A program made the translations under genes and the position numbers. Below the pieces are notes generated by a model that did not search any database, was not told the origin of the DNA, and worked only from the letters and a program-made list of their open reading frames with translations. A stretch of DNA of 36,596 nucleotides from Limisphaerales bacterium (GTDB taxonomy: Bacteria > Verrucomicrobiota > Verrucomicrobiia > Limisphaerales > UBA11358), in contig PMOA01000045.1 of NCBI GenBank assembly GCA_003161635.1, positions 57,574 through 94,169 on the forward strand. Direction: 5' to 3'. Position 1 is the first letter of the stretch. Every line of letters starts with the position of its first letter. Of this stretch, positions 12,832 through 31,418 are shown piece by piece.

Positions 12832-13536
12832 TTAAGCAGGTGCATTTCGGTTGGATTGACGCTCCAGCTTTGCGATCAATGTTTTTACGGAAAGATTCTT
12901 CAAGCCCGAAGTAACGAAATTCGCTTTTCCCAAAATAACCGGGTCCCCAATGCCGACGCTGAACATGTTGGCAGCTATGGCGGCTTCAATTCCGGCTTTA
13001 GCATCTTCAAAGACAACGCAATTCTGCGGAAGGACGCCAAGTTCCCGGGCGCCGGTTAGAAACACTTCCGGGTCGGGTTTGGCTTTTGTCACTTTATTGC
13101 CGTCGATGATCGCATCGAATAAATGCGTTATTTGCAAAAGGTTCAAGATGGTTGTTGCATTCTTGCTTGCGGACCCTAATCCAATTCCCAAATTGTTATT
13201 CCTGCAATCGGTCAGAAATTCCCTTGCTCCCGGCAGCACTTCGTCGGGACGCATTTTCAAAACGTACTGCAGATAAAGCGAATTCTTTTTCTGAGCCAAA
13301 AGCGTTTTTGATTCGTCATCCAGAGAAATCCCTCCGATTTCGAGCAGTATTTCCAGGGATCGTATTCTGGAAACACCTTTGAGTTTCTCGTTGTCTTCTT
13401 CCGTGAAAACAAATCCCAGTTCTTCGGCAATTTCCCGCCACGCGACAAAGTGATACCTGGCGGTATCCACTATCACGCCATCCAGATCAAACAGGCAGGC
13501 TTTGAGCATCATCGAATTGGTATTCTCCACAGTCAT
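12832..13536 (-). CDS. pgmB: Beta-phosphoglucomutase
   Basis: The 234-residue HAD-family enzyme converts beta-D-glucose 1-phosphate to glucose 6-phosphate, the step after maltose phosphorylase. Motifs are in place: CLFDLDGVIVDTARYH with nucleophile Asp17 and acid/base Asp19, the cap-domain loop KGVSRIRSLEILLE, GLGSASKNA, the lysine in VTKAKPDPEVFL, and VFEDAKAGIEAA for magnesium. The ATG at 13536 overlaps the transporter stop codon by one base (TGATG), which fits translational coupling and supports this start. ATG codons at 13512 and 13509 are possible but give a very short N-terminus. The frame continues far upstream only as shadow inside the transporter gene. The product is cytoplasmic and belongs to the GH65 pathway. 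Confidence 0.94.
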   Translation of the reverse strand: MTVENTNSMMLKACLFDLDGVIVDTARYHFVAWREIAEELGFVFTEEDNEKLKGVSRIRSLEILLEIGGISLDDESKTLLAQKKNSLYLQYVLKMRPDEVLPGAREFLTDCRNNNLGIGLGSASKNATTILNLLQITHLFDAIIDGNKVTKAKPDPEVFLTGARELGVLPQNCVVFEDAKAGIEAAIAANMFSVGIGDPVILGKANFVTSGLKNLSVKTLIAKLERQSNRNAPA

Positions 13537-16438: not shown

Positions 16439-17236
16439 TCAGGGTAAAAGTTCAATGCGATAAAAGCGTTGTGTCGCTGTCATTGATGGCGACTCAGTGT
16501 AATTCAACTGCATTTGCAACGACCCGGCATAATTCGAGCCGGCGGGCAGATGGCTCCACGTTCCGCCAGGGCGGCTGGCGAATTGAACCAGATACGCGCG
16601 GCCCGGCATCGCCGCCCAATTCAACATGGAGCCATTGGTCGATGAATTGGCCGACAAAATCTTGAACCCGCGCGCCGGATCGCACAAATCGAATGTGCCG
16701 TTGCCCAGCGAATCGCGCAACGCGACAACCGGGATCACCAAAAATTCATTCGTGTCAATGTTCGGGCCGGAGTCGGGGGGACATTGCGCGACGAGCGCGC
16801 CGCCGTCGGCGGTCTGATACGCCGCGGCGCAAAGGTAAAGGTTCGCAGGCACCGAACCGAACGCGGCGGCGAGGTCGAGCGTGCCTTCGAGCGCGCCGGA
16901 ATAATTCACCTGCGCGCCGGCGTTCGGATAACCGAGCAGCCCGCTGATGGTGGAACTTGGCTGGCCCTGATAGGCGTTCACGCGGTCGGCCTCGGCGAAA
17001 ATGGTGGACAACACTTCCGGCGAGGGATGCGGCCGTCCGGCGTTCTGCTGTTGAATCGTGTCCCACGCATTTTCGTAATGGTCGGTGCCGTAGTTACGGC
17101 GATCCGGCCAGTAAATCGGCTGATGCAGATGCCAGAGCCACGTCGTATGGACGCTGGTGTTGGTGCCGGCTTGAACGCCTGCCGGCAGGAATATTGCAAC
17201 AACGCACCATGGGATAATACGACGAAATAACTTCAT
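16439..17236 (-). pseudogene. Internally deleted GH57-like secreted protein (remnant)
   Basis: The open frame codes for 265 residues with an intact signal peptide (MKLFRRIIPWCVVAIFLPAGVQA). It then has TTWLWHLHQPIYWPD, which carries the first conserved region of GH57 glycosidases (HxHQP, residues 36-40). The similarity continues to about YPNAGAQVNYSGAL (residue 115). It then passes directly to LDLAAAFGSVPANLYLCAAAY and to a C-terminal module ending FYRIELLP. GH57 enzymes normally need several hundred more residues, including the catalytic Glu and Asp regions, none of which is here. The reading frame is kept across the join, so a secreted truncated protein might still be made. As the first gene of the leftward starch run it sits 42 bp from the palindrome at 17278. 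The ATG at 17236 is chosen because it starts the signal peptide. The remnant interpretation relies on recalled family structure. Confidence 0.65.
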
Positions 17237-17602
17237 TTGGCTTGGGTCATAATTAACTCCCTGACGCCACCTAAACCACCGCATAATCATGCGGTAGCAA
17301 TTCTGGCAAGAGCATGGTATGGACATCTAATGTCAGTCATTTTGCAAAGCAAACCAGGCTTCAACAAAGGCGCAAAAGGCTTGTTGTTACCGCGTATTTT
17401 TTGGAGACGTAATTTAATCCACAACTGAATCGCGCCATTAAAAGATTTATTGAACTCCCATTATCCCCGTGAACTCCGTTTATTGCCGTTCTTCGATTAC
17501 GTGTCTTTCGCGAAAAACCCGTGTCCCGATTTTTTTTGGCAGGCTGTCGTTGGCGGCACTGCTTTGGGTCGGACGGTTTGATCTCGGTGATAAAAACCAG
17601 CC
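17237..17602. other. Divergent promoter region of the starch block
   Basis: This 366-bp gene-free stretch separates the leftward gene run (from 17236) from the plus-strand GH13 gene (from 17603). It holds the ACCGCA-N6-TGCGGT palindrome at 17278-17295. A TGGACAT(N)TAAT segment at 17320-17331 resembles TGGACGTTAAT at 19873-19883, which lies at a similar distance from the second palindrome. The remainder (about 17340-17602) shows no gene, RNA or clear promoter. No Shine-Dalgarno precedes either start. Confidence 0.6.
17278..17295. promoter_or_regulatory. Putative operator, palindrome copy 1
   Basis: The site reads ACCGCATAATCATGCGGT, two perfect 7-bp arms around AATC. It is 42 bp before the leftward run start at 17236 and about 310 bp before the plus-strand GH13 gene at 17603. 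Copies 2 and 3 share the outer arms exactly. It is probably bound by a dimeric regulator, but neither the protein nor the direction of control is known. Confidence 0.6.
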
Positions 17603-19723
17603 ATGAACAAAATTCGCCTTGTCCGCACAGCGTCCAAAAATCAATTTCCCGTTGGTTCCAATCGGGCTGCTTTGGCCCTCGTGTGTGCTGCGCTGTCAAT
17701 GGCAACAGCGGTGCCCGCTCAATCCAATCGGCCTGGTTGGGGATCAACCCCATATCACGACACGCTTGGAACCGGCGTCACCTTCCGCGTCTGGGCGCCG
17801 AACGCGACGACTGTTTATCTTCCCGGACAGTTTAACAACTGGTCAACCAGCACGACTCATCTGATCCAGGAGACAAACAACGGGGTTGGGGACGGCATCT
17901 GGTCGCTGGATCTGCCCGGAATAACGAATGGCACACAATACAAATACTACTTCAATGGAAATCTTTGGAAGCAAGATCCACGAGCGCGTCTGGTCACCTG
18001 GTCTGGTGGGAGTGGCAACAGCATTGTCTATGATCCGAACGCCTTTAACTGGGCTGGCGACAGCTTGACCCCGCCGGCGCTGAATGACTTGTTTGTTTAT
18101 GAACTTCACATCGGCACATTTTACACCAACGCGTCGCCCAACAAGTTTGTGTCGGCCACCAACAAGCTCGATTACTTGAAAAGCCTTGGCGTCAATGCGG
18201 TCGAGGTTATGCCGATTGCGGAATTCCCGACTGATGCTAGCTGGGGCTATAACCCGGCCCAACCGTTCGCCGTGGAGAACATCGGCTACGGCGGGACGGA
18301 TGGATTCAAAACTTTTGTCCAGGCATGTCATGCCCGCGGCCTTGCCGTCTTGCTGGACGTCGTTCACAACCATTACGGGCCATCGGATCTGGATATGTGG
18401 AATTTCGATGGCTGGGCAGGCGTCAACTCGCTCGGGGGTGGCGGCGTTTACTTTTACGAGAGCAATACCAACCTTCAAATCACGCCTTACGGGGATACGC
18501 GACCGAACTTCAGTAGTCAACAGGTGTGCAATTTTGTTCAGGACAACTTTACCATGTGGCTCAGTGAATGTCATGTGGATGGGTTCCGCTGGGACACGCC
18601 CAACCTCATGATGCACGACAACAACAATAATTATATCCCTGCTGCGGGCAATCTCATCGCCGCCATCAATGCCATGATTCACACCAATTACACCGGCAAG
18701 ATCAGCATCTCCGAGGATGTGTATAATTACATTGGATTCGACAGCGCGTGGGACACCAGCTTTCCCTACTCGGTGACGCCGGTACTGACGACGACTTCAG
18801 ATTCCAGTCGCGACATGAATGTCATTGCGAACGCGGTGCAGTATAACGTCCGGTACGGCGGTCCGGCGGGTCCGGGTCGTGTGGCCTTTCTTGAATCGCA
18901 TGATGTGGTCGGCGATTTGAATGGCGGCATCCGGTTGGTGACGGCGATTGACCCGGTCACGCCCAACAGTTACCGGGCGAGAAAACTTTCCACCCTCGGC
19001 GCCGCCGTGACGCTCACGGCACCCGGCGTACCGATGATTTTCCAGGGCCAGGAGATGCTCGAAAACCAGTCGTTTGACTCCAGCCGCATCGTGGATTGGA
19101 CCAAGACGAATACCTATTCCGGCATCGTCCAACTTTACCGCGATCTCATCACCGCGCGGCGCGATTTGAAGGGCTACACGCCGGGTCTGAAGGGCGATCA
19201 ATGCAGCGTGCTCTGGTCGGACAACAACAGCAAGCTGGTTGCTTTTCATCGCTGGAAATCCGGCACCACGAACCAGGACGCGGTGGTCATCGCCAATTTC
19301 GCCAACGTCAACTACCCGGTTTACAATCTAAATTTCCCCTACGCCGGCACTTGGTATGTCCACTTCAACACCGACTCCACCAACTACAGTTCCGACTTCG
19401 GCAATAACGGCAGCACCGTCGTAACCGCCGGCGGCAATCCGGTTCAGGCCAGCGTCGCCATCGGGCCTTACAGCGCGCTAATCCTGTCGCCCACGCCCGA
19501 CGCCCCGCCGCAGTTGACGATTACGCCAACGAACGGCACCGTGAACGTCTCCTGGTCAAACACCTATTCCGAGTGGCTGCTGGATTCAAGCACGACGCTT
19601 GCGGGAAATCCGCCGCCCTGGACTCAGGTTTCGACGTCGCAATACCAGACCAACTCGACGACGGTTTACATCAACGACACGCCATCCGGCGACGCGACCT
19701 TTTATCGGCTGCGCAAACCCTGA
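17603..19723 (+). CDS. Secreted CBM48-GH13 alpha-glucan-active enzyme
   Basis: The 706-residue protein has a signal peptide (cleavage near ATAVPAQ-SN, about residue 40). A CBM48-type starch-binding domain follows (GVTFRVWAPNATTVYLPGQFNNWS, residues 57-140), then a GH13 barrel. Catalytic regions are visible: DVVHNHYG (252-259), GFRWDTPN with nucleophile Asp331, ISEDV with Glu371, and ESHD with Asp434. This order of CBM48 and GH13 is that of glycogen branching enzymes and of isoamylase-type debranching enzymes. The region II sequence GFRWD is unusual for both, so activity is left open; secretion argues against glycogen synthesis. After the barrel and a beta domain comes a C-terminal module (19511-19723) ending FYRLRKP, shared with other secreted proteins here. 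The ATG at 17603 gives the complete signal peptide. Confidence 0.87.
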   Translation: MNKIRLVRTASKNQFPVGSNRAALALVCAALSMATAVPAQSNRPGWGSTPYHDTLGTGVTFRVWAPNATTVYLPGQFNNWSTSTTHLIQETNNGVGDGIWSLDLPGITNGTQYKYYFNGNLWKQDPRARLVTWSGGSGNSIVYDPNAFNWAGDSLTPPALNDLFVYELHIGTFYTNASPNKFVSATNKLDYLKSLGVNAVEVMPIAEFPTDASWGYNPAQPFAVENIGYGGTDGFKTFVQACHARGLAVLLDVVHNHYGPSDLDMWNFDGWAGVNSLGGGGVYFYESNTNLQITPYGDTRPNFSSQQVCNFVQDNFTMWLSECHVDGFRWDTPNLMMHDNNNNYIPAAGNLIAAINAMIHTNYTGKISISEDVYNYIGFDSAWDTSFPYSVTPVLTTTSDSSRDMNVIANAVQYNVRYGGPAGPGRVAFLESHDVVGDLNGGIRLVTAIDPVTPNSYRARKLSTLGAAVTLTAPGVPMIFQGQEMLENQSFDSSRIVDWTKTNTYSGIVQLYRDLITARRDLKGYTPGLKGDQCSVLWSDNNSKLVAFHRWKSGTTNQDAVVIANFANVNYPVYNLNFPYAGTWYVHFNTDSTNYSSDFGNNGSTVVTAGGNPVQASVAIGPYSALILSPTPDAPPQLTITPTNGTVNVSWSNTYSEWLLDSSTTLAGNPPPWTQVSTSQYQTNSTTVYINDTPSGDATFYRLRKP

Positions 19724-19826
19724 TTACCGGCGCAAGCTTCACGAAATCAAGACTCTGCCTTTACTGACGAATCGCCAAAAGCCTCACTTTTAGCACCACG
19801 CTAATGGAGCATTACCGTAGTTGCGT

Positions 19827-19844
19827 ACCGCACAAACATGCGGT
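19827..19844. promoter_or_regulatory. Putative operator, palindrome copy 2
   Basis: The site reads ACCGCACAAACATGCGGT, with 6-bp outer arms identical to copies 1 and 3. It lies 86 bp before the start of the PEP-CTERM gene at 19930, in a 206-bp gap with no other recognisable element except GATACT at 19865-19870, a possible -10 hexamer. That placement would put the palindrome near or over the -35 region. Confidence 0.6.
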
Positions 19845-19929
19845 AGCGAAAATTGATCGCGGATGATACTCTGGACGTTAATCAGTAGGCAAAAGTAGGA
19901 AAAACTAGAAAAACTATTATTATCAAATC

Positions 19930-20748
19930 ATGAACTCGACCCTTAAAACCTCGGCCATCGCGGTTGCGATGGGATTATCCGCTTCCGGCGCATTTGCCGC
20001 CGCGACGGCTTCGGACACCTCCGCGAACTACACCGGCGGTTGGAGCGCCTCGACTACGCCAAATCTCGGCTCCGGTTTTGGCGCGTGGAGCGTCGCTGAC
20101 AACGACGGTGGCGGTAGTGCACCGTACGCCGACACTTATCTTGACCTGGCTTCGTACAGCAACCCCGATACGGTTTTGACCGGCGGCTCCGCTTGGGGCA
20201 CCTACGCCAATAGCGCCCCTAACGCGTTCATTGACCTGAGCCGTGCGTTCAACACAGGCGGAGGTTCGGCTTCCCTTGTTAATCAGACGTTCTCGGTTGC
20301 TTTCAACTCTTCCGGTATCGGTGGCACGGGTCAATCTATTGCTTTGAGCGTCGGCTCGGCCTTCACCTTAACCTACGCCGGAGGTGGCGCCGACAACATG
20401 ACGCTGAGTGTGGACGGCGCAGCCGCGTCCGCGATTTCGGTCGATTATGCTCAAATTGCGGCCGGCATCAACGTTGCCTTGACGGTGACCGGCCCCGTGA
20501 ATAGCAGCAGCGAAGCCTACCAGCTTGCGATCAGCCCGTTTGCTGGCGGCCCGGCGCTTTACACCGGAACCGGCACATTTGACAGCTCAACCTATAACAC
20601 TTCCAGCTTCACTCTTGCTGACAACAATACTGCTAACAACCAGTATTTCAACAATCTGAGCATCACAGCGGTTCCGGAGCCGTCCACCGTGACGATGAGC
20701 CTTTCAGGTTTGGCCGCGCTTTTGGCTTTCCGCCGCCGCGCCAAGTAG
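19930..20748 (+). CDS. PEP-CTERM anchored secreted protein of unknown function
   Basis: The 272-residue protein has a signal peptide (MNSTLKTSAIAVAMGLSASG, cleavage near AFA-AATAS). It ends with a PEP-CTERM sorting signal: AVPEPSTVTMSLSGLAALLAF followed by RRRAK. Such tails are recognised by an exosortase and direct the protein to the cell surface, usually in bacteria that make exopolysaccharide; no exosortase gene is in this window. The mature part is rich in Gly, Ser, Thr and Asn and is probably all beta, possibly lectin-like, with no catalytic motif seen. The palindrome 86 bp upstream links it to the starch genes, so it might bind glucan on the cell surface, which is inference. A strong terminator follows within 21 bp of the stop, so it is a single-gene unit. 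Confidence 0.88.
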   Translation: MNSTLKTSAIAVAMGLSASGAFAAATASDTSANYTGGWSASTTPNLGSGFGAWSVADNDGGGSAPYADTYLDLASYSNPDTVLTGGSAWGTYANSAPNAFIDLSRAFNTGGGSASLVNQTFSVAFNSSGIGGTGQSIALSVGSAFTLTYAGGGADNMTLSVDGAAASAISVDYAQIAAGINVALTVTGPVNSSSEAYQLAISPFAGGPALYTGTGTFDSSTYNTSSFTLADNNTANNQYFNNLSITAVPEPSTVTMSLSGLAALLAFRRRAK

Positions 20749-20768
20749 CAGGTTAAACAGAATTCACA

Positions 20769-20803
20769 AACCAAGCCCGCTTTCGGGCTTGGTTAATTTT
20801 TTT
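20769..20803 (+). terminator. Rho-independent terminator after the PEP-CTERM gene
   Basis: AACCAAGCCCG pairs perfectly over 11 bp with CGGGCTTGGTT around a CTTT loop (20769-20794), followed by AATTTTTTT. It begins 21 bp after the stop codon at 20748 and is the clearest terminator in the window. It may also serve in reverse for the GH31 gene ending at 20862. Confidence 0.93.
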
Positions 20804-20861
20804 AGCCAGGGAGGTGTATCGCGAGCCGGTCCACCATGAAGGGAAGCGGCCAGAAGACGCG

Positions 20862-23432
20862 TTAACGGTCGATGACAAAGCGCATCGGCTTGAAGTTGTC
20901 ATCATCCTTCACGGTAAGCAAGCCATCGGCGAATGACCACCCGTGCGGCGAATGTGCCAGCGCCTCCGCGTCCAAATGTGGCAATAAAACCCTGTCAGCG
21001 GCCACGTCACTGATTTGGCTGAAGATGTTTTTAGGCTGATGGTCTGTCCACGTCTCCAAAACCAAATCGCGCGCAGCGGGACGATATGTCCCTTCCGGCT
21101 CGGACACGTCAACGATCATTTTCTGATCGTTGCGGGTCTGATGAAATCGGCGCTTCATAAAGGCGCCTTTGCGATAATCAAGTGTTTCTCCATTGTCTTC
21201 GTAGAGTGAGGATTCAGACTCGTTCGCCGGAGCGATGAGGACGCGAAGCGGTTTTTCCGGCATTTCACCCGTGTTCTGAACAACTGGCTGGCGGAAGATA
21301 AAACCGTCGCCGCGCACGAACAGGGGAATGGAATTAAGTGTTACCGGCAGATGTATGCTCTGCCCTCCTGCGAACTGACGGCCGGTCCAGTAATCGAACC
21401 ATTCCCCTTGAGGCAGGTAAACTTCGCGTTCATTCGCGCCTTCGTACAGAACCGGTGCCACGAGCAGGTCGGCCCCAAAAAGAAATTCGTCATCCAGCCC
21501 GGCGACCTTTTCATCATCGGGATATTCGAGGAACAAAGGGCGTAGAGCCGGCACGCCGGTCTGGCTGGCCTGTTGCATCGCATTGTAAATGTAGGGCAGC
21601 AATTCATAGCGCAATTCGATGGCGTGTTTGTTGATGATTTCATGCTGATAATCAAACGACCACGGTTCCTTGTCGGGCGAACCCCACGTGGAATGCGACC
21701 GCATAAACGGGTAAAACACTCCGGCTTGCAACCAGCGGGTATAAAGTTCGCCGGACGGCGAACCATCAAAGCCGCCAATGTCGCAACCCACAAAGGAAAA
21801 CCCCGACAGTCCCATGCCCAGCAGGGTGGAAATTGATTGCCGCAGCGAAGACCACTCGGATGTGTTGTCACCTGGCCAGACGGCGGCGTAGCGTTGGCCG
21901 CCCGCGAAACTGGCACGCGTGAGAACGAATGGCCGCTCGTTCGGCCGCAAGCGTGACAATCCTTCAAACGTCGCACAGGTCAGCAACTGGCCATACACAT
22001 TGTGGATTTCGCGATGCGTGGTCGGCTGCCCCTCGTTGTTAAAAACAACATCCAAAGGCATGGTCCCGCTCGTGGTATTGAAAACCGCCGGTTCGTCCAT
22101 GTCGTTCCAAATGCCGGCCACGCCGATATCCAGGAAACTCTTGTAAAGCGATCCCCACCATTTGCGCGCCGCCGGATTGCTGAAATCCGGGAACACGCTT
22201 GGGCCGGGATCCTTATCCGCATGCGACGGCCAAACCGGCGCTTCATACACCGTGCCGTCGGGATTTTTCACAAAATAATTTCCCGCCATGCCCTCGTCGT
22301 AAGGCGCATAACCCTTTTCAACCTTCGGATGTGCATCCACGATGCAGACGACGTGGAAACCTTGAGCGCGCAAATCCGCCATCAATTTCTTCGGATCAGG
22401 AAAACGCTCATGGTCCCAGGTGAACGGCTTGTAGTTGTCCTGATAATGAATGTCCAGCCAGATGACATCGGCGGGGATTTCCTTTTGGCGGAACGTGTCG
22501 GCCAGCAGGCGCACCCGTGATTCGGGATAGTAACTGTAACGACATTGGTTGAAGCCGAGCGACCACAGTGGCGGCAACGGCACTCGTCCGGTCAAGGCGG
22601 TGTAACGTTCGATGACTTTTTTCGGATCGGGTCCGTTGATGAAGTAATAATCCAGATCGCCGCCTTCCGCGCCGAACGTCAGCAAGTCCTGCCGTTCGCG
22701 GCCCACGTCGAACGTGCTGCGCCAGGTATCATCCAGGAAAATCCCGTGCGCCTGCCCGTGACGGACGACCAGGTAGAACGGCACGGAAACATAAATCGGA
22801 TCCGTGCCCGAATCGTGGGCGAAGGTGTCTGAATTCCACATGACATAATTGTAGCCGCCCAGTTTCCAACCGCGCTTGTCGAGCTTGCCATTTTTTTCGC
22901 CGAAGCCATAAATGTGCTCGTCATCGCGCAATTCTTTGGCGACACGAAACGCCGGGCCGGCAAAAGCGATTCCGCGTCCCGGATCATCGGCGTCCAGAAT
23001 TTCACCGGCGGAATTGGCAAAGGAAATCCGCAACGGAGACTGTTGCACGGTCACTTTAACCGAAGCCGTTGCCAGCGTGGTGGAATTGGAACCGGTTTCA
23101 ACTTTTGCCGACACCGGGCCCAAGTCGTGATTAACGACGGCGTAAGAATGATCGCGGCCAAAGGATTTTGCGGTTGTGAAACGGACGCGGATGACATCGT
23201 CTGACAAAGGTGTAATGGTGAGTGTGCCTTGGCCGCTCTGAAACAACAGCGCCCTGCCATCCCAGGTCGGAGCGGGCATTACGCCGATCGACGACCAACC
23301 ACCACTTCCAATATCACTCTGAATAGAAACTGGCGGCAGCGCGTCCGCAGCCTGCACCACCAACCCTGTCAGGTGCAGGAAAAGGCTAAATACGATTGCC
23401 AAAACGATTTTGTTTCTCACCCGGATTTTCAT
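20862..23432 (-). CDS. Secreted GH31 alpha-glucosidase
   Basis: The 856-residue enzyme probably releases glucose from the ends of maltodextrins outside the cytoplasm. Its signal peptide is MKIRVRNKIVLAIVFSLFLHLTGLVVQAAD. The GH31 layout follows: an N-terminal beta-sandwich with EHIYGFGEKNGKLDKRG, then the barrel with PPLWSLGFNQCRYSYYPES, DVIWLDIHYQDNYKPFTWD, the nucleophile motif GIWNDMDEPAVF (Asp444), WPGDNTSEW with probable acid/base Asp522, and FVGCDIGGFDGSPSGELYTRWLQAGVFYPFMRSH. C-terminal beta domains include LYEDNGETLDYRKG. Alpha-xylosidase activity is the main alternative, but the starch context favours alpha-glucosidase. The start at 23432 is chosen because upstream codons run back into the preceding gene and the signal peptide begins here. 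The GH13 gene ends 13 nt upstream, so the two are probably co-transcribed. Confidence 0.92.
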   Translation of the reverse strand: MKIRVRNKIVLAIVFSLFLHLTGLVVQAADALPPVSIQSDIGSGGWSSIGVMPAPTWDGRALLFQSGQGTLTITPLSDDVIRVRFTTAKSFGRDHSYAVVNHDLGPVSAKVETGSNSTTLATASVKVTVQQSPLRISFANSAGEILDADDPGRGIAFAGPAFRVAKELRDDEHIYGFGEKNGKLDKRGWKLGGYNYVMWNSDTFAHDSGTDPIYVSVPFYLVVRHGQAHGIFLDDTWRSTFDVGRERQDLLTFGAEGGDLDYYFINGPDPKKVIERYTALTGRVPLPPLWSLGFNQCRYSYYPESRVRLLADTFRQKEIPADVIWLDIHYQDNYKPFTWDHERFPDPKKLMADLRAQGFHVVCIVDAHPKVEKGYAPYDEGMAGNYFVKNPDGTVYEAPVWPSHADKDPGPSVFPDFSNPAARKWWGSLYKSFLDIGVAGIWNDMDEPAVFNTTSGTMPLDVVFNNEGQPTTHREIHNVYGQLLTCATFEGLSRLRPNERPFVLTRASFAGGQRYAAVWPGDNTSEWSSLRQSISTLLGMGLSGFSFVGCDIGGFDGSPSGELYTRWLQAGVFYPFMRSHSTWGSPDKEPWSFDYQHEIINKHAIELRYELLPYIYNAMQQASQTGVPALRPLFLEYPDDEKVAGLDDEFLFGADLLVAPVLYEGANEREVYLPQGEWFDYWTGRQFAGGQSIHLPVTLNSIPLFVRGDGFIFRQPVVQNTGEMPEKPLRVLIAPANESESSLYEDNGETLDYRKGAFMKRRFHQTRNDQKMIVDVSEPEGTYRPAARDLVLETWTDHQPKNIFSQISDVAADRVLLPHLDAEALAHSPHGWSFADGLLTVKDDDNFKPMRFVIDR

Positions 23433-23445
23433 AGTCAATTTTATA

Positions 23446-26010
23446 TCAAGGCACGACTTCAATTTCGTAAAATTTTTGTGGCGCCGGCGGGGAATTGGGA
23501 ATGTCCAAATAAGAGGTGGACAGGCCGTTGGCCGGAATGGCTTCACTGATGGGCGTGAAGGGCTGGCTCAAATTGGTGGTCGCCAGAACCGTATAGTTGA
23601 CCCCAGGCGTGCTGCTCCAAACCACTGACTGGTTGTTGCTGGCCAAACCCGAGATCGCCAGCGGCGGCGGCACAATCACCGTCCGCGCACCGGTTAAAAC
23701 CACCCCATTGTTGCTGTAAATAACTTGAATGGTGTTGGAGCCGGGTAAAGCGCCGCTCCAGTTGTAGAGCAACGAGCGCATCCCACTGCAACCGGCTACA
23801 GCCCCCGGAGGGCGAAAGATGTAGGATGACTGCGGCCGCAACACGCCGTTGATGGTCAGGTTAAAAAGGCTGGGATTATTCGTATCCAGAGCCGGAGTGA
23901 AACAGACCTGGATCAGATAAGTAGTATTGCTTCCCATTGGAATCACCAATCCATCGGTCGCCGGACTGGAAATATAAACGGAAGGCGGGGCGGCGGCGGT
24001 CTGGAACAACAAGTGGTAAGGCGCAAACATGGTTTTACCCGATACCGCGCCGAATGCCGAGTTGGTCAGATTCACTGTGATGTTTGTCAAACCCGGCAGA
24101 CCTGCGCCGTCCGCCGTAAAGGTCATCGTATCATGCGCTGCCGACCAGGTAAATGAACCGCTTACGGATGGCTTAGTGGAAAACGCAGCCTGAACACCAT
24201 TAACATCCATCGGCTTGCTGAATTGAAGCACGATTGGCGAAAAGGTTGGCACATTGGTAGCCCAGTGACTCGGTGAGTTGCTCACCACCACCGGATCGAG
24301 CGGCTGCCACTGCGATTGCGCGATGAAAATTTTGGCTGTGGTGCTTGGCACAGTTATGGCAGGAGTTTGCGAACCGGAAGCGAGAGTGATGGTTTCATTG
24401 GTGTTCAGTAAATTCACCAGCACGGTGCCTGCGGTATAAGTCAGAGTGCGCGCGGGCAACGTTTGGCTGGAACTGGCCGTGTTGAAAACGACAAACACTT
24501 CCTGCGTGTTCAGCACGCGGGAATAGGCAAACAATCCCGGGCCGGTGGAGTTGTTGGCCTGATTGACGTATGAGCCGAGCGTGAGCGCAGGATACAACCG
24601 GCGAAAATTGTTCAATTGGGCCACCCACAGGAACAGCGGGTGGGTCATGTTGAAATTATCAACGCCCGGCGAACTGAGCTGTAAAACAGTACCCGCCGGG
24701 CCATCCTTGAATTCCCCGGCAAACATATCCTCTCGGTCATTCGGGTCGGTCGTGCCATCAAAACCCTGTTCCGTGCCGTAATATAGACACGGGATGCCGC
24801 GCGAGGTGTAAAGAAAAGCCAGCGCCAACTCAAGGCGGTTGGTGTTGTTGTTCGCTTTGCTGGTGCTGAGAAAACGGGGATTATCATGATTATCAAGGAA
24901 GGTGACCAACTGCATCTGCGCGGCCGGATCGTAATTGGCCGCAACCGCGTTGTAATGATTTTGAATCAGTGACGTGGCGCCGCTGGCCGTGGCAAATACG
25001 CGGTTGACCGTGAAATAAAGCGGATAATCCAAAACGGAATCAAACTTAAATGGACCGCCGCCTTCGGTCCCGGTATAAGAACCAACCGTGGTTTCAGAAC
25101 CGTTAAAAGCCTCGCCAAACATGAAGAAGTTGGTATTGCCATTGGTCGCCGCATACGAATGGATCGCCGGACAGAAACTCTGCCAGCACCCCATGTCAAC
25201 TTCCAGTGCCGTATCAACCCGGAACCCATCAAAGCCAATCTGATTAATCCAATGTTCGTAAATCGCAGTCATGTTTGAGCGAACGTAGGGCGTTTCCGTT
25301 CTGAAATCATTCAGCCCGGACAACCAACCCAAAAGAGCCTGCGTGCTATTATTGTAATCCGCAATGTTACCGTAGTTATGAAATAAATTGGTGAGGGACG
25401 GATTGGTGGCTGTGAGATTGAAGGGTGCCGGATACGTTTTTGAATTGTTCCTATAACTAAGAGCATAGCCGGCCGGGTAGTTGAAAGTGGCCCCGCTGCT
25501 TCGGACGAGGTCGCCCGCGTGGTTCACGACGATGTCGTCAATGACCAGCAAGCCTCGTGCGTGCGCCGCCTGAACCAGGTTTTGCAAATCGGAGATGGAA
25601 CCCCAATGCGGAGCCACCTGGTAAAAATTCCAGGCAGAGTAACCATGAAATTGACCTTCCGTGTTCAACACGATCGGTGAAATCCAAATTGCCGTTGCCC
25701 CCAATGCCTTGATATAGTCCAATTTCTGTTCTATCCCGTCGAAATCTCCACCATGCACCCCGGTCGGATTGCTGGGAGCGTAAGTTCCTTCCGCATTGTT
25801 ATTCGATGGATTTCCATCGTAAAAGCGGTCGGTGATGATCTGGTAGATGCTTTGCGTCCGCCAGAAATTATTGGATTGCGCAAACAAGTTTGTTTCCACA
25901 AGGCCAAAAATAGCCAGAACACAAAGCACCTGAACACAGAGACGCCATGTCATCACCACAGAGACAAATGGGGAGTGCCACCTCACCGGCAGACGCATTC
26001 TTTTCATCAA
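23446..26010 (-). CDS. Secreted GH13 alpha-amylase with C-terminal Ig-like domains
   Basis: The 854-residue protein begins with a long signal region (MMKRMRLPVRWHSPF..., core LCVQVLCVLAIFGLV, cleavage near LFAQ). An internal ATG at 25953 would give a shorter signal peptide and is also possible. The GH13 barrel starts SIYQIITDRFYDGNPSNN and carries DDIVVNHAG (His164), GFDGFRVDTA with nucleophile Asp266, MFGEAF with acid/base Glu300, and FLDNHDNPRF with Asp376; this spacing fits alpha-amylase or cyclomaltodextrinase-like enzymes. After a beta domain (to about 565) comes an SbsA-like Ig domain (VVVSNSPSHWATNVPTFSPIVLQFSKPMD). A second Ig-like domain follows, then a C-terminal module ending KFYEIEVVP. 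It is probably displayed outside the cell and cuts starch. The 118-bp gap upstream holds the terminator of the pseudopilin gene. Confidence 0.9.
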   Translation of the reverse strand: MMKRMRLPVRWHSPFVSVVMTWRLCVQVLCVLAIFGLVETNLFAQSNNFWRTQSIYQIITDRFYDGNPSNNNAEGTYAPSNPTGVHGGDFDGIEQKLDYIKALGATAIWISPIVLNTEGQFHGYSAWNFYQVAPHWGSISDLQNLVQAAHARGLLVIDDIVVNHAGDLVRSSGATFNYPAGYALSYRNNSKTYPAPFNLTATNPSLTNLFHNYGNIADYNNSTQALLGWLSGLNDFRTETPYVRSNMTAIYEHWINQIGFDGFRVDTALEVDMGCWQSFCPAIHSYAATNGNTNFFMFGEAFNGSETTVGSYTGTEGGGPFKFDSVLDYPLYFTVNRVFATASGATSLIQNHYNAVAANYDPAAQMQLVTFLDNHDNPRFLSTSKANNNTNRLELALAFLYTSRGIPCLYYGTEQGFDGTTDPNDREDMFAGEFKDGPAGTVLQLSSPGVDNFNMTHPLFLWVAQLNNFRRLYPALTLGSYVNQANNSTGPGLFAYSRVLNTQEVFVVFNTASSSQTLPARTLTYTAGTVLVNLLNTNETITLASGSQTPAITVPSTTAKIFIAQSQWQPLDPVVVSNSPSHWATNVPTFSPIVLQFSKPMDVNGVQAAFSTKPSVSGSFTWSAAHDTMTFTADGAGLPGLTNITVNLTNSAFGAVSGKTMFAPYHLLFQTAAAPPSVYISSPATDGLVIPMGSNTTYLIQVCFTPALDTNNPSLFNLTINGVLRPQSSYIFRPPGAVAGCSGMRSLLYNWSGALPGSNTIQVIYSNNGVVLTGARTVIVPPPLAISGLASNNQSVVWSSTPGVNYTVLATTNLSQPFTPISEAIPANGLSTSYLDIPNSPPAPQKFYEIEVVP
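25935..25965. repeat. Two CACAGAGAC repeats within the signal-peptide coding region
   Basis: CACAGAGAC occurs at 25935-25943 and 25957-25965 on the plus strand, antisense to the amylase signal-peptide codons, in a stretch rich in ACACA and CCACAG. Such units usually lie between genes in environmental bacteria, which suggests repeat DNA was taken into the 5' end of the gene. Confidence 0.4.
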
Positions 26011-26092
26011 ATTCCATTTTTTTAGGAGCTGGGATCAAACACTGGGGACGAGCTGCCTTCAAAAACCGTTGCCCTGCGGTGACAAACATTCC

Positions 26093-26122
26093 AAAAAGAG
26101 CCGACCAAAAGTTTGTCCGGCT
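26093..26122 (-). terminator. Rho-independent terminator after the starch-block pseudopilin gene
   Basis: Read on the minus strand, AGCCGGAC pairs with GTCGGCT, with one bulged G, around AAACTTTTG, followed by CTTTTT. It starts 6 nt after the stop codon of the pseudopilin gene (26129). It would separate that gene from the GH13-GH31 pair beginning at 26010, which then needs its own promoter within about 80 bp or read-through. Confidence 0.75.
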
Positions 26123-26128
26123 AGCCTA

Positions 26129-27058
26129 TCACTGCGCGGGCGTGTGCTGGGCAAACCAAACCAGATCCTGCAAGGCCAGGGAGTCGCCAGTGAGCGGGAC
26201 ACCCTGACCGGCATAAGCCACATATTTGACTGGCGGCGTATCAAGGCTGCCCTTCCAAACATGCACTTCCGCATGGCCGTCGGCAAAAAACATTCCGGCG
26301 GCTTTGGCATGCAAACTGCCCGGCAGCTCCGTGAAACTGGTTCCAGTTCCATTCACATCCGCCGGGTCAACGAAGAGCGCGCAATCATCGTTGGCGTCGG
26401 GATGTTCATCCGTCACCACCCAGCAATCCGAAGGTCCGGGGCTGTGCATGCCCGTCGTTTTTGTAACATTGTAATATAGCGGCATTGTGGAATGTCCCGG
26501 GTTGCCTACCCCAAACCACTTATAACCATCGCCCATCGCCGCGTTCATGGCGCAGGTGCGGACGCGGCTTGACAATGAGAATTGCGCCAGATACGACGAC
26601 CCGCTTTGTGCGGTTGAAAGATAATGGTCCGCCGGACAGACGAAAATTTTAACCGATTGGGCGACATAGGGTCCCATCAGGGCGGTGGACTGAGTTCCCA
26701 TAATGAGCTGGTCAACGGTTAGAAGCGAGGTGTCGAAGTCTTGCTTGCTGTTGTTCCAATCCAACACGGGCATCGAGCCGCCTTCCGCCGGGCAAATCCA
26801 GTTCAACCCCCCCCCAGTGCCGGTGTGCTTGTCTTGATTGGTCACCAGTCTATCTTCGTTGTCGGTGGCATACATGAACCACGCCAGCCCCAGTTGCTTG
26901 TAATTGCTCATGCACGAAATGCCCAAGGCCCGGATTTTTGCCCGGCTCAAGGCGGGCAGGAGCATGGCGGCCAGGATGGCAATGATGGCGATTACCACCA
27001 GCAACTCAATCAAAGTAAAGGCACCCTTTTGTGGCTTTTTGCAGGTCATTTTTTTCAT
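26129..27058 (-). CDS. Type II secretion-like pseudopilin within the starch block
   Basis: The 309-residue protein has a leader [12 protein letters not shown], then [22 protein letters not shown], a standard prepilin cleavage/methylation site, followed by a globular domain. The C-terminal part has the H-X9-DG signature ([21 protein letters not shown]). The ATG at 27058 gives a leader of normal length; the frame runs 30 codons further upstream through a duplicate of the same leader region and is not needed. It lies between the SusE/F-like gene (194 bp upstream) and the amylase/glucosidase pair. Pseudopilins of this type are numerous in Verrucomicrobia and their jobs are mostly unknown. Location suggests a role in exporting or displaying starch-active proteins, which is inference. 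A terminator follows. Confidence 0.88.
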
Positions 27059-27137
27059 GTGAATTGAAACTACTTTAGGCTGCCGTCTTTTTTCTATCAA
27101 CCCCAAATACTTGTGGTTTTTGCAGGTCATCTTTTTC
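27029..27137. repeat. Direct repeat duplicating the pseudopilin gene start
   Basis: A 27-28-bp sequence occurs at 27029-27056 (over the start codons of the pseudopilin gene) and again at 27111-27137. On the minus strand both copies contain ATGACCTGCAAAAA followed by CCACAA. They differ at only a few positions. The upstream copy sits in the leader and is open in the same frame, so it could add an alternative start. Confidence 0.6.
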
Positions 27138-27179
27138 CTGCCAACCAAATCCTTTGGTCTGGCATCTGCCTAAATTTTT

Positions 27180-27223
27180 CCCCGGCTGGGGCCGGGGTCG
27201 TTGCCCAACACGCCCAGCCGGGG
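27180..27223 (-). terminator. Strong 11-bp inverted repeat after the SusE/F-like gene
   Basis: CCCCGGCTGGG (27180-27190) pairs perfectly with CCCAGCCGGGG (27213-27223) around 22 nt. On the minus strand it lies about 30 nt after the stop at 27253 and is followed by AAAAATTT rather than a T-run. It may be a rho-independent-like stop, an RNA-stabilising hairpin or a dispersed repeat. Confidence 0.4.
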
Positions 27224-27252
27224 ATTCCCGACACTTGTTTCTTTTCAACTTG

Positions 27253-28938
27253 CTAGTTCTTTATCAAACGGAAGAACTGATTGCCGCCGGCGTTGGGCCA
27301 GTTGGTGGACTGCGTGCCGTCAGTTGCGCTATTGGTATTCCAGCTTCCCGTCAAATTGGAACTGTTCTGCAACAACACTCCCGGACGGCCCAGCCAGGTG
27401 ATGGGAATATGGCCGCCTGAAGGAGCACCGGCCGCAAGGTATCCAAAGTCCGGTTCCACGATGTTCGTGACGGCGAGTCCAGGATTGGGGTAAGGCGCAC
27501 TGCCGAGGTTCGTGTTAATTACGGTCCAGGACCACACATCCTGCGGGAATGAGTAGGTCGGCCCGTAGGAGCGGATTTCACGGATATGGTTCGTATTTAC
27601 ACCATTCTCATCGTCAACTCCATTATAGCCATATTTGTAAGTCACATAGATTGAAGAGCCTCGCGGGAAGACGAAGGAATTGGTGTAAACGTCAGACGTG
27701 CCCACTTCCACCATCTCCTGGCTTAAGGGCATGGTAAGGTAGCCCCAACCCCAACCTGAAGAACTCGCCGACGGCGCCCAAGGGCCAGCGATGTAAGGAA
27801 AGTCAGTGTTTTTTATAAATTGATAGCCATTAATGTCCGGTGTCCCATTCGTAATAAGGACGGAGAAAGTCACCGTGATGGGGGAAACAACCAAGTCGCC
27901 GGGGCGGAGGTCATCATAACTAAACGAAAGGACTTGGTTTGCATTGCTGATGACTAAGTAACGATCGCTTCCATGAGTGGACACCGGCTGTTCGTAACCG
28001 CCGTCCAGATTGTTCACCCGGAACTTGCATTCGAGAGTATAGGGCAGGAATTTTTGGATCGGGATCGTTGCGATATAAAGGTTCGTCCGGGTATCCGCCG
28101 GGTTAAGTATGGGAGCATTGGTCAATTGAGTTTGCGTGCCCCAGCCCATATACGAGCCGGCGATCGCGACGGAATTTACAGGCTGACCGAAGTTGGGATC
28201 ACTGGGGTTAAGATCAGTGTTGGTGAAATTGCCACCCGCAACTTCTTCGCTCATATCAAGCTGAAACGTGATGTAGTTGGTCGGGGGAAGCGCCGGGGCG
28301 CCAACGTAATAACGGCCACCCGGCAAATCCAAAACGACCGGCAGGGTTTGCGGGTTACTGGTGGTGGTAAATACTCCGTTGGCATTGTTGTTGCCAAAAT
28401 CCGCACCGAAATAGATGTCGCTCCAGCTTCCCGCCGGCGACTGGAACTTGAACTCGTTATCTGTGTTTGCGGGGCCGGTAACGACAATACTGTTGGAATA
28501 AACACCATTGCCAAGGGACAGCAGATTCGTGTCCGTGCCATCCCAGCTATTGAATGGCCCCGCGAATCCCCAACCCAGACTATTGTTGGGGTTGTCGTAA
28601 CCCACGCGGTTGCCTAACGGTGTCCACCCGTCGGTCGAATTTCCGGGCCAAAAATGGATGGTGGCCGAACCGGTGGAGTCATACAAAAAATACAAATTGT
28701 TACCCGGCCAGGTATTGTTCCAAGTGCCATCAGTCACTTTACAATTGCCATAGGCACCCGGCGTGCCGCCGGTAATCGTATAACTGAATTCGCCGGCGTT
28801 TGGTCCGGCGACCATCGGGGTTGAATTGTTGACCCATCCCTGGAAATCGCCAGCCAGATACCACTGCGCTTGCGAGACGGACACAAAGGCAACTGTCAGT
28901 CCGACAATTGCGAATATTTTTTTTAGTTGATGTTTCAT
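27253..28938 (-). CDS. Secreted SusE/F-like putative starch-binding protein
   Basis: The 561-residue protein has a signal peptide (MKHQLKKIFAIVGLTVAFVSVSQA-QW). It has several beta-sandwich modules with aromatic, Asn-rich patterns such as WYLAGDFQGWVNNSTPM, GWGFAGPFNSWDGTD and AIAGSYMGWGTQ, which resemble the carbohydrate-binding modules of SusE/SusF and amylase starch-binding domains. No catalytic motif is seen. It ends with the shared C-terminal module (LQNSSNLTGSWN ... NQFFRLIKN). A lipoprotein Cys is absent, unlike true SusE/F, so attachment to the cell would be by other means. It is the first gene of a leftward run with a pseudopilin, an amylase and a glucosidase, and has a palindrome 112 bp upstream. 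A glucan-binding role is inferred from composition and neighbours. Confidence 0.7.
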   Translation of the reverse strand: MKHQLKKIFAIVGLTVAFVSVSQAQWYLAGDFQGWVNNSTPMVAGPNAGEFSYTITGGTPGAYGNCKVTDGTWNNTWPGNNLYFLYDSTGSATIHFWPGNSTDGWTPLGNRVGYDNPNNSLGWGFAGPFNSWDGTDTNLLSLGNGVYSNSIVVTGPANTDNEFKFQSPAGSWSDIYFGADFGNNNANGVFTTTSNPQTLPVVLDLPGGRYYVGAPALPPTNYITFQLDMSEEVAGGNFTNTDLNPSDPNFGQPVNSVAIAGSYMGWGTQTQLTNAPILNPADTRTNLYIATIPIQKFLPYTLECKFRVNNLDGGYEQPVSTHGSDRYLVISNANQVLSFSYDDLRPGDLVVSPITVTFSVLITNGTPDINGYQFIKNTDFPYIAGPWAPSASSSGWGWGYLTMPLSQEMVEVGTSDVYTNSFVFPRGSSIYVTYKYGYNGVDDENGVNTNHIREIRSYGPTYSFPQDVWSWTVINTNLGSAPYPNPGLAVTNIVEPDFGYLAAGAPSGGHIPITWLGRPGVLLQNSSNLTGSWNTNSATDGTQSTNWPNAGGNQFFRLIKN

Positions 28939-29049
28939 ATGAGTCTGGAGTCTAATTTTTGGTTTGATCTATTGCTGCTGCTAAATTGCTTTCGCTCTAC
29001 AACTTTAATTAGGTTCTTGAACAACATAGCATAACATTAAGCTTTCGTA

Positions 29050-29067
29050 ACCGCATATTTGTGCGGT
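29050..29067. promoter_or_regulatory. Putative operator, palindrome copy 3
   Basis: On the minus strand the site reads ACCGCACAAATATGCGGT, differing from copy 2 at one base. It is 112 bp before the SusE/F-like gene start at 28938. A TATGCT hexamer on the minus strand (29033-29028) lies 16 nt beyond the right arm and could be a -10 element, which would place the palindrome across the -35 region. Confidence 0.62.
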
Positions 29068-29093
29068 ATGATCGGAGCCGCCAGAAAGCGGTG

Positions 29094-29119
29094 AAACCCC
29101 CCGTGTTTTCAGGGGGTTT
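29094..29119 (-). terminator. Hairpin across the stop codon of the SGNH-TPR gene
   Basis: On the minus strand AAACCCCC pairs with GGGGGTTT around a loop that contains the TGA stop codon (29109-29111). There is no T-run after the stem. It is probably where transcription of the carbamoyltransferase cluster ends, but this is uncertain. Confidence 0.5.
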
Positions 29120-31418
29120 GAGCTTTATGGGCGCGAACCGAGGCAAGGTATTCCTGGGCAATCTGGTTGTCCGGCTCAATTTTGAGCGCATTTTGGAAGC
29201 AGGCGATGGCCTCGTCCAGCCGGTTGAAATGCACGAGCACCGCCCCCAACTTGATTTGGCTGGGGACATGGCGGGGATTGATTTTGAGCACCTCACCGTA
29301 TTCATGAGCGGCCTCGTCAAGCCGATTGACGTCGGCCAGTTCGTCCGCGAGTTCAAAATGTGCCGGCCAATAATCCGGACTCATCTGGATGGCCCGCTGG
29401 TAACGTTCAATCGCCTCGGAATGCCGGGCGAGGCTGGCCAGCATCTGGGCGACGCAACAAATGCAAGAAGGATCCTGCGGACGAAGGCGCACGGTGTGTT
29501 CCATGCAGTCCAGCGCCGGCGCAAACTTCTGTTGAGCGGCTAGGTTTTGTCCCAGTTGAAACCAGCCTTCCGGCACGCTGGGACGCAATCGCACGGCCTG
29601 TTTGAGAAACGGTTCGCCCTGCGTCGGCTGGCCCTGCTCCCCGAGCAGACGGCCCAGTTCGAGGGAGTCATAAAAATCACCCGGCATTAATTCAACCGCC
29701 TTTCGATAAGCCGCAATGGCCCCCTGCGGGTCCTTGATTGTTTCGAGGAAATTGGCCAGACCTTCGTAGAGATAATAATCTGCCGGTGCGCACTCCAACG
29801 CGGCGGCCAATTCCTCGCGAACGCGCTGGGCGGCGCCGGGTAGTGCCTCCAGTTGGCGGAGGTTCAACTCTTCAGCGCGCATCTTCCGGCGCCGGTCGTC
29901 GTTGTTGGACTGGGCGCTGAACGGGGGCGACTCCAACCGCTGGATCATGGCGTGCAATACAAACTGCCGGTTCCAAATCGTCAAGCCCAGCGCGCGGTCG
30001 CAGGTGTCCTGCGACATCCAGTTCGTGGTGGCAGGCGGACTTCCCGCCGCCGCCAACATTCGCCCGACCTGTTCCGCCCAGAGCTTTCCCAACCGGTAAT
30101 TGCCATCAAAGTTGAAATGGACATGCTCGTAAAAAGTTTCGTCCCCGGTGACGCCCGCGGGGCTGGCGGCGGCCAATTCGCGCTCGGCATCGCAGAATGT
30201 CAGCCGGTCGCCGGTATCCTGCCGGGCCACTTTCCGGATGGCGGCGTTGATCCGCGTGTCGGCGCGAAACGGCAGCGCGTCGTCATCGCACGCGACTTGA
30301 AACTGCTCCCGGGCGGCGGGATTGGTGAGCGCCAGTTCACATTGCGCCAGCCGGAAATGCGCCTCGGCAAACGGCGGATTTAAATTTATCGCCTGCGTGA
30401 ACCGCTCGGCGGCGGCGAGGTAATTGCTCTGGGATTGCAGCGATTGGCCCGCGGCAAGGTTCTGGTCGAATTGCGCGCGGTCCGCCGCCGGCAAATTGCT
30501 GTTGATGAGTGAGGCAAACGGCGGAGAGTCTTTGAGATTCACCGAGACCGTGCTCAAAATGACTTTCGCGCCCGAATCCATTCCGGCGTGGACGATGTCG
30601 CGCAAGTTGGCCTCGAAATTCCGATAGACCGTTTCCTTGCGCCGATCATCGGGCGCGACGCGGTTGCCGAGGAACATCTCCATGCCGCCCCAGGACGTGT
30701 TTTTCGATTTGCCACCCAGTTGGCGCAAGGCGGCAACCAGCAATTGTCCGATGCGCGTCCGCTGGAGCTCGATATTAAACTGTGCCACCTGGCGCGGCAG
30801 TGCCTGCGCGCCAAACACGGTCACCGCGCCGAACGGCCCGACCATTTCGTTGTTGCCCATATAAACAATCCAGAAATCGTCGTCATGCCGGGCGCACTCG
30901 CGCGCGATGGGGAGGATGACGTGCGAATTGATGGCGGTGATGCCGAGGTTGACTACCTCGAATTTTTTTCCGGGGAACCGCTCGCGCAACTGTGCTTCCA
31001 TGAACCGGCTGGCACCGTAAGCCGGCTGCGGGTCGCCCATCGCGGCGGATTCACCAAAAATAAAAATGCGGATGGTGTCCGGCGATTTAACCGCCGGAAT
31101 CAAAAACGGGTCCGGCCAGCGCGCCAGTTGGGGCGGAAAAAAGCGCAGGGTAAAATTTTCGTCGTTGATGAAATAATCCTTCCCGTCGCGGTGAATCTTT
31201 TTGAAGAAGCCGGTGGGATAGCCGTAACCTGCCAGTCGTAAAGCCGCTTCCAGTCCGCCCAGCAATATCAGTGGCACGACGACGAGCGCGAACAGCCGGA
31301 ACAGCCATTTTCGGGCCGGCGACAGCGGTATCGTTGGCTCGACGCGCGAATTCTGGCCGGGCGTATTTTTGCTTTCCAGTTTGCGTCCGGCTTTTGATTT
31401 TTTCGCGCTTTGTTTCAT
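29109..31418 (-). CDS. Membrane-anchored SGNH-hydrolase-like protein with C-terminal TPR repeats
   Basis: The 769-residue protein has a basic cytoplasmic tail, one membrane segment (residues 37-56), and an extracytoplasmic domain with SGNH-like blocks: FIFGESAAMGD (Ser124), VNLGITAINSH, IVYMGNNEMVG (188-191), and YEHVHFNFDGNYRLG late in the domain. GDSL/SGNH enzymes are esterases or transferases, often acting on sugar acetyl groups, so modification of a glycan is possible. A TPR segment sits inside the domain (SNYLAAAERFTQAINLNPPFAEAHFRLAQ) and at least five more repeats fill the C-terminal 200 residues. The first 45 residues closely match the upstream neighbour at 31490-33235, so the two are tandem paralogues. 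The gene follows by 71 bp and ends the cluster. Substrate is unknown. Confidence 0.82.
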   Translation of the reverse strand: MKQSAKKSKAGRKLESKNTPGQNSRVEPTIPLSPARKWLFRLFALVVVPLILLGGLEAALRLAGYGYPTGFFKKIHRDGKDYFINDENFTLRFFPPQLARWPDPFLIPAVKSPDTIRIFIFGESAAMGDPQPAYGASRFMEAQLRERFPGKKFEVVNLGITAINSHVILPIARECARHDDDFWIVYMGNNEMVGPFGAVTVFGAQALPRQVAQFNIELQRTRIGQLLVAALRQLGGKSKNTSWGGMEMFLGNRVAPDDRRKETVYRNFEANLRDIVHAGMDSGAKVILSTVSVNLKDSPPFASLINSNLPAADRAQFDQNLAAGQSLQSQSNYLAAAERFTQAINLNPPFAEAHFRLAQCELALTNPAAREQFQVACDDDALPFRADTRINAAIRKVARQDTGDRLTFCDAERELAAASPAGVTGDETFYEHVHFNFDGNYRLGKLWAEQVGRMLAAAGSPPATTNWMSQDTCDRALGLTIWNRQFVLHAMIQRLESPPFSAQSNNDDRRRKMRAEELNLRQLEALPGAAQRVREELAAALECAPADYYLYEGLANFLETIKDPQGAIAAYRKAVELMPGDFYDSLELGRLLGEQGQPTQGEPFLKQAVRLRPSVPEGWFQLGQNLAAQQKFAPALDCMEHTVRLRPQDPSCICCVAQMLASLARHSEAIERYQRAIQMSPDYWPAHFELADELADVNRLDEAAHEYGEVLKINPRHVPSQIKLGAVLVHFNRLDEAIACFQNALKIEPDNQIAQEYLASVRAHKAQTP

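Follow-up and report, generated by a model that had tools for sequence, protein, structure and literature searches.

Which regulator governs the starch-degradation genes of the Limisphaerales, and do proteins of other kinds answer to it? The question is raised by a stretch of 36,596 nucleotides from a bacterium of this order (hereafter the window; positions 57574-94169 of contig C8 of its genome, G000), where three copies of an 18-bp palindrome, ACCGCA-N6-TGCGGT, stand before genes of α-glucan metabolism, a PEP-CTERM gene and a SusE/F-like gene. In this study, we found that near-identical copies in related genomes precede genes for α-glucan enzymes, PEP-CTERM proteins and SusE/F-like proteins, and also the genes of a sensor-kinase/NarL-type regulator pair. 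Judged from sequence comparison, it is quite likely that the palindrome is the operator of a two-component starch regulon, bound by the NarL/LuxR-type regulator that works with the partner kinase.

The palindrome in the window and in related genomes

An exact search of the window recovered the three copies at the positions reported by the initial annotation with zero mismatches (Table 1), copies 2 and 3 differing by one base after copy 3 is reverse-complemented, and it confirmed that the window holds no further exact copy. The distance of 42-112 bp to a gene start, which had been given for all of them, applies to the leftward gene of site 1 (41 bp), the PEP-CTERM gene (85 bp) and the SusE/F-like gene (111 bp), but not to the CBM48-GH13 gene, which starts 307 bp to the right of site 1. 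Among the hexamer-N0..20-hexamer palindromes of the window, only this one reaches three copies, and some three-copy family appeared in 1 of 30 dinucleotide shuffles of the window. The exact pattern occurred in the whole genome (159 contigs, 4,308,035 bp, 94.62% complete) at three places, which are the three window sites and fall within 11.8 kb, and the reversed pattern used as a control occurred at one. When up to one mismatch was allowed, the pattern had 9 places and the control 31; the six additional loci (3 kb each) gave no match to any starch reference protein.

The comparison was extended to 97 genomes, 48 of them outside the genus, so that the same-genus tables cover 49. A scoring matrix was built from 23 sites, the window's three among them, and a profile of 28 positions, R1, was trained on 46 of the 74 distinct sites scoring at least 17. 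Many of the 28 sites left out of the training were weaker or close duplicates, and the genomes G019 and G047 were also omitted. Counted at E ≤ 0.01, the profile found 61 distinct places in 34 of the 97 genomes. Fifty-four lie within 600 bp of starch-type or pair genes: 34 near an α-glucan enzyme or transporter gene, 16 near SusE/F-like or PEP-CTERM genes only and 4 near kinase or regulator genes only, which leaves 7 near none. Forty of the places overlap training sites, 2 of them not being near starch or regulator genes; the corresponding number is 5 for the 21 untrained places, the other 16 of which are near such genes. The sites in relatives also precede genes for large GH13 proteins, GH57 genes (one product with Pfam starch-binding modules), GH31 genes and an α-glucan phosphorylase gene, and a GH77 gene is a frequent neighbor. 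It suggests that one shared site joins the PEP-CTERM and SusE/F-like proteins to the α-glucan genes, as the initial annotation had proposed, and the copies found before one type of regulator gene are likewise in line with what it had expected of such a scan.

The exact pattern matched 42 of the 97 genomes, and outside the own genus only G058 also passed the profile; the other exact matches there looked mostly like chance. Besides the reversed pattern or reversed sequence, the controls included the kinase-paralogue loci of the own genome with their flanking DNA, which held a single match in 118 kb (score 18.6, at L096:703). The loci L154-L174 gave 35 matches scoring at least 17 against 0 in the reversed sequence. 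The first control loci gave 11 such matches in 348 kb, a biased figure, as some of these loci had been chosen for carrying the motif.

The individual copies are conserved to different extents. The 18-mer of site 1 is identical in G031, where the flanks are similar, and G016 has a variant 18-mer with more diverged flanks; that of site 2 recurs in seven genomes (G058, G031, G010, G039, G045, G016 and G028). After the three sites, the next profile places of the own genome are on contigs C144 and C37 (E 0.4-0.9). The former falls inside an HlyD-type open reading frame, and the latter (E 0.80-0.86), which precedes the called start of a second gene for a GH13 amylase by 84 bp, is a weak candidate for a fourth site.

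At L058, L268, L269, L271 and L272, genes for large GH13 proteins, for GH77 and for a PEP-CTERM protein form a recurrent cluster, in which a site lies close to where the PEP-CTERM gene starts; the site in L269 is weak (13.8). Good motif matches away from starch genes were also seen, at L063:6178 (G048), L061:9912 (G027, near an HSP70 gene) and L056:3858 (G019, near a GH95 gene); these could be chance matches or additional regulon members.

The sensor kinase and its response regulator

The pair consists of a HisKA_3 sensor kinase and a response regulator with receiver and GerE domains. The regulator of G042 matched the Pfam families Response_reg (86.4 bits) and GerE (56.7 bits) above the cut-off, and its orthologue in the own genome, on contig C121, is 81% identical over the full length. 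Residue D55, which we take from the family to be the phospho-acceptor aspartate, is invariant across 20 aligned sequences. The closest solved structures of the regulator are DevR, VraR, DesR and NarL. The kinases of C121 and G042 carry HisKA_3 and HATPase_c above the cut-off, and the kinase core is closest to VraS and DesK. Against NCBIfam, the G042 regulator stayed far below the cut-off of the models among the matches listed (25 of 99), and the G042 kinase far below that of all 8 of 8. In none of 15 members did the outer domain of the sensor match a Pfam family at E 0.1, and it is predicted to fold as a galectin- or concanavalin-like β-sandwich; a Foldseek search with the whole kinase returned kinase cores in all 50 matches listed and was uninformative on the sensor.

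The pair sits amid starch genes in many of the relatives' loci fetched. Sites stand directly before the kinase gene in G042, G008 and G025 (at 16, 17 and 17 bp, respectively, from the start used), and directly before the regulator gene in G031, G023, G022, G025 and G058. Kinase orthologues (E ≤ 1e-90) were found in 27 of the 97 genomes and regulators (at least 75% identity) in 26, together in 28. The genome sets for Fisher's test were assembled by hand. R1 was trained partly on the genomes tested and relatives are not independent, so the p-values overstate the association in the following comparison: in the same genus, the motif was present in 25 of the 26 genomes with the pair and in 8 of the 23 without it (25 and 1 against 8 and 15; p 3.9e-6), and among all 97 genomes the counts with and without the motif were 26 and 2 for genomes with the pair against 8 and 61 for the others (p 1.9e-14). 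The untrained exact pattern with Y and R as inner bases gave 15 of 26 against 6 of 23 in the same genus (15 and 11 against 6 and 17; p 0.025). Among the 48 genomes outside the genus, the regulator occurred in G058 and G066, and the motif in G058 only.

The loci of named records showed the same association, although many belong to the same genomes and some of their sites trained the matrix. At least one site scoring at least 16 was found in 29 of the 35 loci with the full kinase (none in the reversed sequences), in 8 of 20 with other or fused sensors, and in 0 of 17 that matched the kinase domain only.

G058 belongs to another family. Its regulator is 81% identical, and the contig that encodes it also carries two exact sites, with a third one, found by the profile, immediately before the regulator gene. 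The kinase beside it is a different one, of 1289 amino acids and of the propeller type. Because this genome keeps the regulator and the sites with a different kinase, the DNA motif appears to follow the regulator rather than the sensor.

At three further loci, a relative of the regulator is accompanied by a long kinase that has Reg_prop and Y_Y_Y domains and is encoded next to it or close by: L177:7232-11101 (regulator 81% identical), L176:12699-16469 (75%) and L060:12356-15409 (60%). On contig C140 of the own genome (L093), an apparent single open frame of 1286 amino acids matches the kinase's sensor domain at its start and the kinase domain at its end.

The initial annotation had taken the regulator to be encoded elsewhere. 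This was wrong for the kinase half, as a search with the G042 kinase showed that a sensor histidine kinase gene begins close to the window's right end, its frame opening at 36370 on the plus strand; the assembled regulator orthologue, the only one in the own genome, does lie outside, on C121. The start of the window-end kinase shares 72% identity with the C121 kinase and 65% with that of G016. Both contigs, C8 and C121, end at the kinase gene, and the last 81 bases of the window (36516-36596) are identical to part of the C121 gene. Since the sequence before these 81 bases differs, the gene is present in two copies, and the assembly may have been interrupted by the stretch that they share. In G016, contig C44 carries in contiguous order the regulator, the kinase, and then divergently TPR, carbamoyltransferase, GDSL/TPR, TPR and TPR genes, a site, the SusE/F-like gene and the prepilin gene. 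This order mirrors the right part of the window with one TPR gene more and continues from the kinase to the regulator; thus, a regulator gene probably follows the kinase just past the window end.

Promoter geometry and competing explanations

The spacing of the palindrome to the promoter was examined at 51 of the 75 sites scoring at least 16. Each of the 51 has complete flanks and a single reference-matched gene at a distance of 30-200 bp. At 26 of them, a -10-like hexamer begins 21-25 nt beyond the palindrome in the direction of the gene, and at 4 one is found at this spacing on the opposite side; where the gene is 60 bp or more away, the counts were 18 and 3 of 31. In 500 local shuffles, the mean was 5.8 and the maximum 13 of 51. 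In the window, sites 2 and 3 fit this spacing (Table 1). If the hexamer is taken to start at -12, the palindrome occupies roughly -51 to -34, with its center near -42, which is the position of class-II activators. This geometry makes control by activation of the class-II type probable; the initial annotation had left the sign of control open.

We infer regulator binding, ligand, phosphotransfer and activation as follows. The outer domain of the membrane kinase, of the HisKA_3 (DesK/VraS) class, would sense an α-glucan or a breakdown product, and the kinase would phosphorylate the NarL/LuxR-type regulator. The phosphorylated regulator would dimerize on ACCGCA-N6-TGCGGT centered near -42, replace the -35 contact and recruit RNA polymerase to a -10 box located some 22 nt downstream. 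This would switch on the genes for the amylases, the transporter, GH65/pgmB and the SusE/F-like and PEP-CTERM proteins and, in several relatives, also the pair's own kinase or regulator gene.

Several observations weigh against a regulon of this kind, in addition to the overstated p-values. Seven of the 61 profile places have no starch or pair gene nearby. Eight same-genus genomes have a profile match and no orthologous pair (G004, G018, G019, G027, G028, G040, G047 and G048), and in four of them (G004, G018, G028 and G040) the sites are linked to starch genes. Assembly gaps possibly hide the pair in these four, because they are 74-93% complete and two contigs of the own genome end inside or at the kinase gene. 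Conversely, G036 and G066 have the pair and no profile match at E ≤ 0.01, though in both of them the matrix detects a site scoring 20.6 next to the kinase. In the own genome, the C121 regulator has only a weak adjacent site (14.4), at the called start of a GH31 gene, and a search of the window found no site before the window-end kinase. The -10 fit of site 1 is weak in both directions, and about half of the sites are without a recognizable -10 hexamer at the preferred offset.

The four genomes with starch-linked sites and no close regulator orthologue also speak for the alternative that survives best, although we regard it as rather unlikely: that another, unseen activator or a wider set of related NarL-type regulators reads the site, and the pair found here is merely a frequent neighbor. 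G047 points in the same direction, with a site 1.7 kb from a 60%-identical regulator that has a propeller-type kinase, away from starch genes. On the other hand, motif and regulator go together in 25 of 26 genomes of the same genus, as they do in G058, and no other recurrent regulator type was noticed near the sites in the annotated loci, where no systematic search for others was made.

Control by a LacI-family maltose repressor, whose operator the palindrome would then be, is very improbable. Sugar genes are often under the control of LacI regulators, whose operators are palindromes of such size, and the own genome holds one LacI-type gene. However, 19.0 of the 19.2 kb of its contig (C85) have neither an α-glucan reference match nor a site scoring at least 10. 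LacI genes occur in 88 of the 97 genomes against 34 with the motif, and two genomes have sites but no LacI match at E ≤ 1e-6 (G031, 8 profile rows, 69% complete; G037, 2 rows, 88% complete). Moreover, the center of the motif is mostly A/T, unlike the CG center that is typical of LacI operators. LacI was rejected as the regulator on the distribution of its genes against that of the motif.

A perfect and intergenic inverted repeat could also form an RNA hairpin, as a leader element or a terminator, but this hardly comes into consideration: the -10 box tends to lie on the gene side, about 22 nt past the palindrome, which places the palindrome upstream of the transcription start, and on this ground the explanation was rejected; moreover, a terminator scan of 16900-29500 includes none of the three palindromes. 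A motif of 12 fixed bases could turn up several times by chance in a genome of 4 Mb, as the window shuffles also illustrate, but a chance cluster has a negligible probability, since the three genome copies lie so close together and copies recur before related genes elsewhere.

Genes behind the sites and relation to known systems

The genes behind the three sites are listed in Table 1. The name SusE/F-like came from the initial annotation and could not be confirmed, as the protein had no Pfam or NCBIfam match at E 0.001; a relative (L057:12390-14783) bears a CBM20 starch-binding domain. As in the window, the SusE/F-like gene has a prepilin-like gene for its neighbor in many starch clusters, and the product of the latter may be a part of secretion or surface assembly. 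The GH57 remnant is without a Pfam match of its own and is a short relative of GH57 proteins of 1100-1400 amino acids, one of which (L054:6156-9935) has fn3 and CBM25/53 matches. The true start of the pgmB-like frame is probably nearer 13500, because the HAD match begins only at residue 162-164. Between 29109 and 35472, the window carries carbamoyltransferase (Pfam), GDSL/TPR and TPR genes, which are recurrent neighbors of the SusE/F-like gene in relatives.

Table 1. Sites, promoter elements and genes of the window in order of position
Feature	Position	Strand	Remarks
GH65 enzyme	10480-12807	-	In the leftward run from site 1
HAD-family open reading frame, pgmB-like (label of the initial annotation)	12832-13986	-	In the leftward run from site 1
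MFS transporter	13536-14876	-	In the leftward run from site 1
GH13 α-amylase-type enzyme	14990-16372	-	In the leftward run from site 1
GH57 remnant	16439-17236	-	First gene left of site 1
Putative operator site 1, ACCGCATAATCATGCGGT	17278-17295	.	Between the leftward GH57-remnant/GH13/MFS/pgmB-like/GH65 run and the rightward CBM48-GH13 gene
CBM48-GH13 enzyme	17603-19723	+	Right of site 1
Putative operator site 2, ACCGCACAAACATGCGGT	19827-19844	+	Before the PEP-CTERM gene
Putative -10-like hexamer GATACT	19865-19870	+	Offset 21 from site 2
PEP-CTERM protein	19930-20748	+	Behind site 2
GH31 enzyme	20862-23546	-	Last gene of the run behind site 3
GH13 enzyme with Big_5 domain	23446-26010	-	In the run behind site 3
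Prepilin-like protein	26129-27148	-	In the run behind site 3; frequent neighbor of the SusE/F-like gene in relatives
SusE/F-like protein	27253-28938	-	First gene behind site 3
Putative -10-like hexamer TATGTT	29023-29028	-	Offset 22 from site 3
Putative operator site 3, minus strand reads ACCGCACAAATATGCGGT	29050-29067	-	Before the SusE/F-like gene
Sensor histidine kinase gene, 5' end	36370-36596	+	75 codons read, ending before the kinase domains; remainder past the contig end

The pair resembles the known systems of NarL/FixJ regulators and HisKA_3 kinases (DesK-DesR, VraS-VraR, NarX/Q-NarL and UhpB-UhpA), which have the same receiver and GerE domains and the same HisKA_3 and HATPase domains, in its sequence and in the adjacency of the two genes in many loci. 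It differs from them in its linkage to starch genes and in a sensor that is without a Pfam domain and is predicted to be a galectin-like sandwich. A LuxR-type helix-turn-helix also occurs in other regulators of maltose genes or of secreted enzymes: in MalT, which in enterobacteria acts as a one-component ATP-dependent activator, and in the DegS-DegU system of Bacillus, which answers other signals. Palindromic operators at maltodextrin genes are likewise a feature of the LacI-family repressors of the MalR/AglR type, whose distribution does not fit here.

The SusR and HTCS regulators of Bacteroides are similar in that periplasmic sensing is tied to starch or glycan loci, and some relatives here have Reg_prop/Y_Y_Y kinases. 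The part of PMC3878776 that we draw on characterizes the SusR and HTCS motifs as long-spaced direct repeats and the two families as specific to Bacteroidetes. As far as that part describes them, the present system differs, in that its inverted repeat is compact and its GerE-type regulator is encoded by a gene of its own, and neither a direct repeat nor an AraC-type helix-turn-helix in the same chain was found.

A more specific proposal is offered tentatively, at somewhat less than even confidence: a circuit particular to this lineage of Verrucomicrobia, in which a kinase with a lectin fold would directly sense the α-glucan, and one regulator with one 18-bp code would activate amylases, PEP-CTERM and SusE/F-like proteins in the class-II manner. 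The sensor would be exchangeable between a short lectin-type and a propeller kinase, and the regulator and the code would be fixed.

This verrucomicrobial group is widespread and mostly uncultured. A literature search of titles and opening abstract lines found no paper on the motif, the pair or the regulon, or on the control of polysaccharide genes in the group. The site provides a rule for listing the members of the starch regulon in metagenome-assembled genomes of such bacteria. The PEP-CTERM and SusE/F-like proteins are thereby linked to starch use, and one regulator pair is named as a candidate for direct study.

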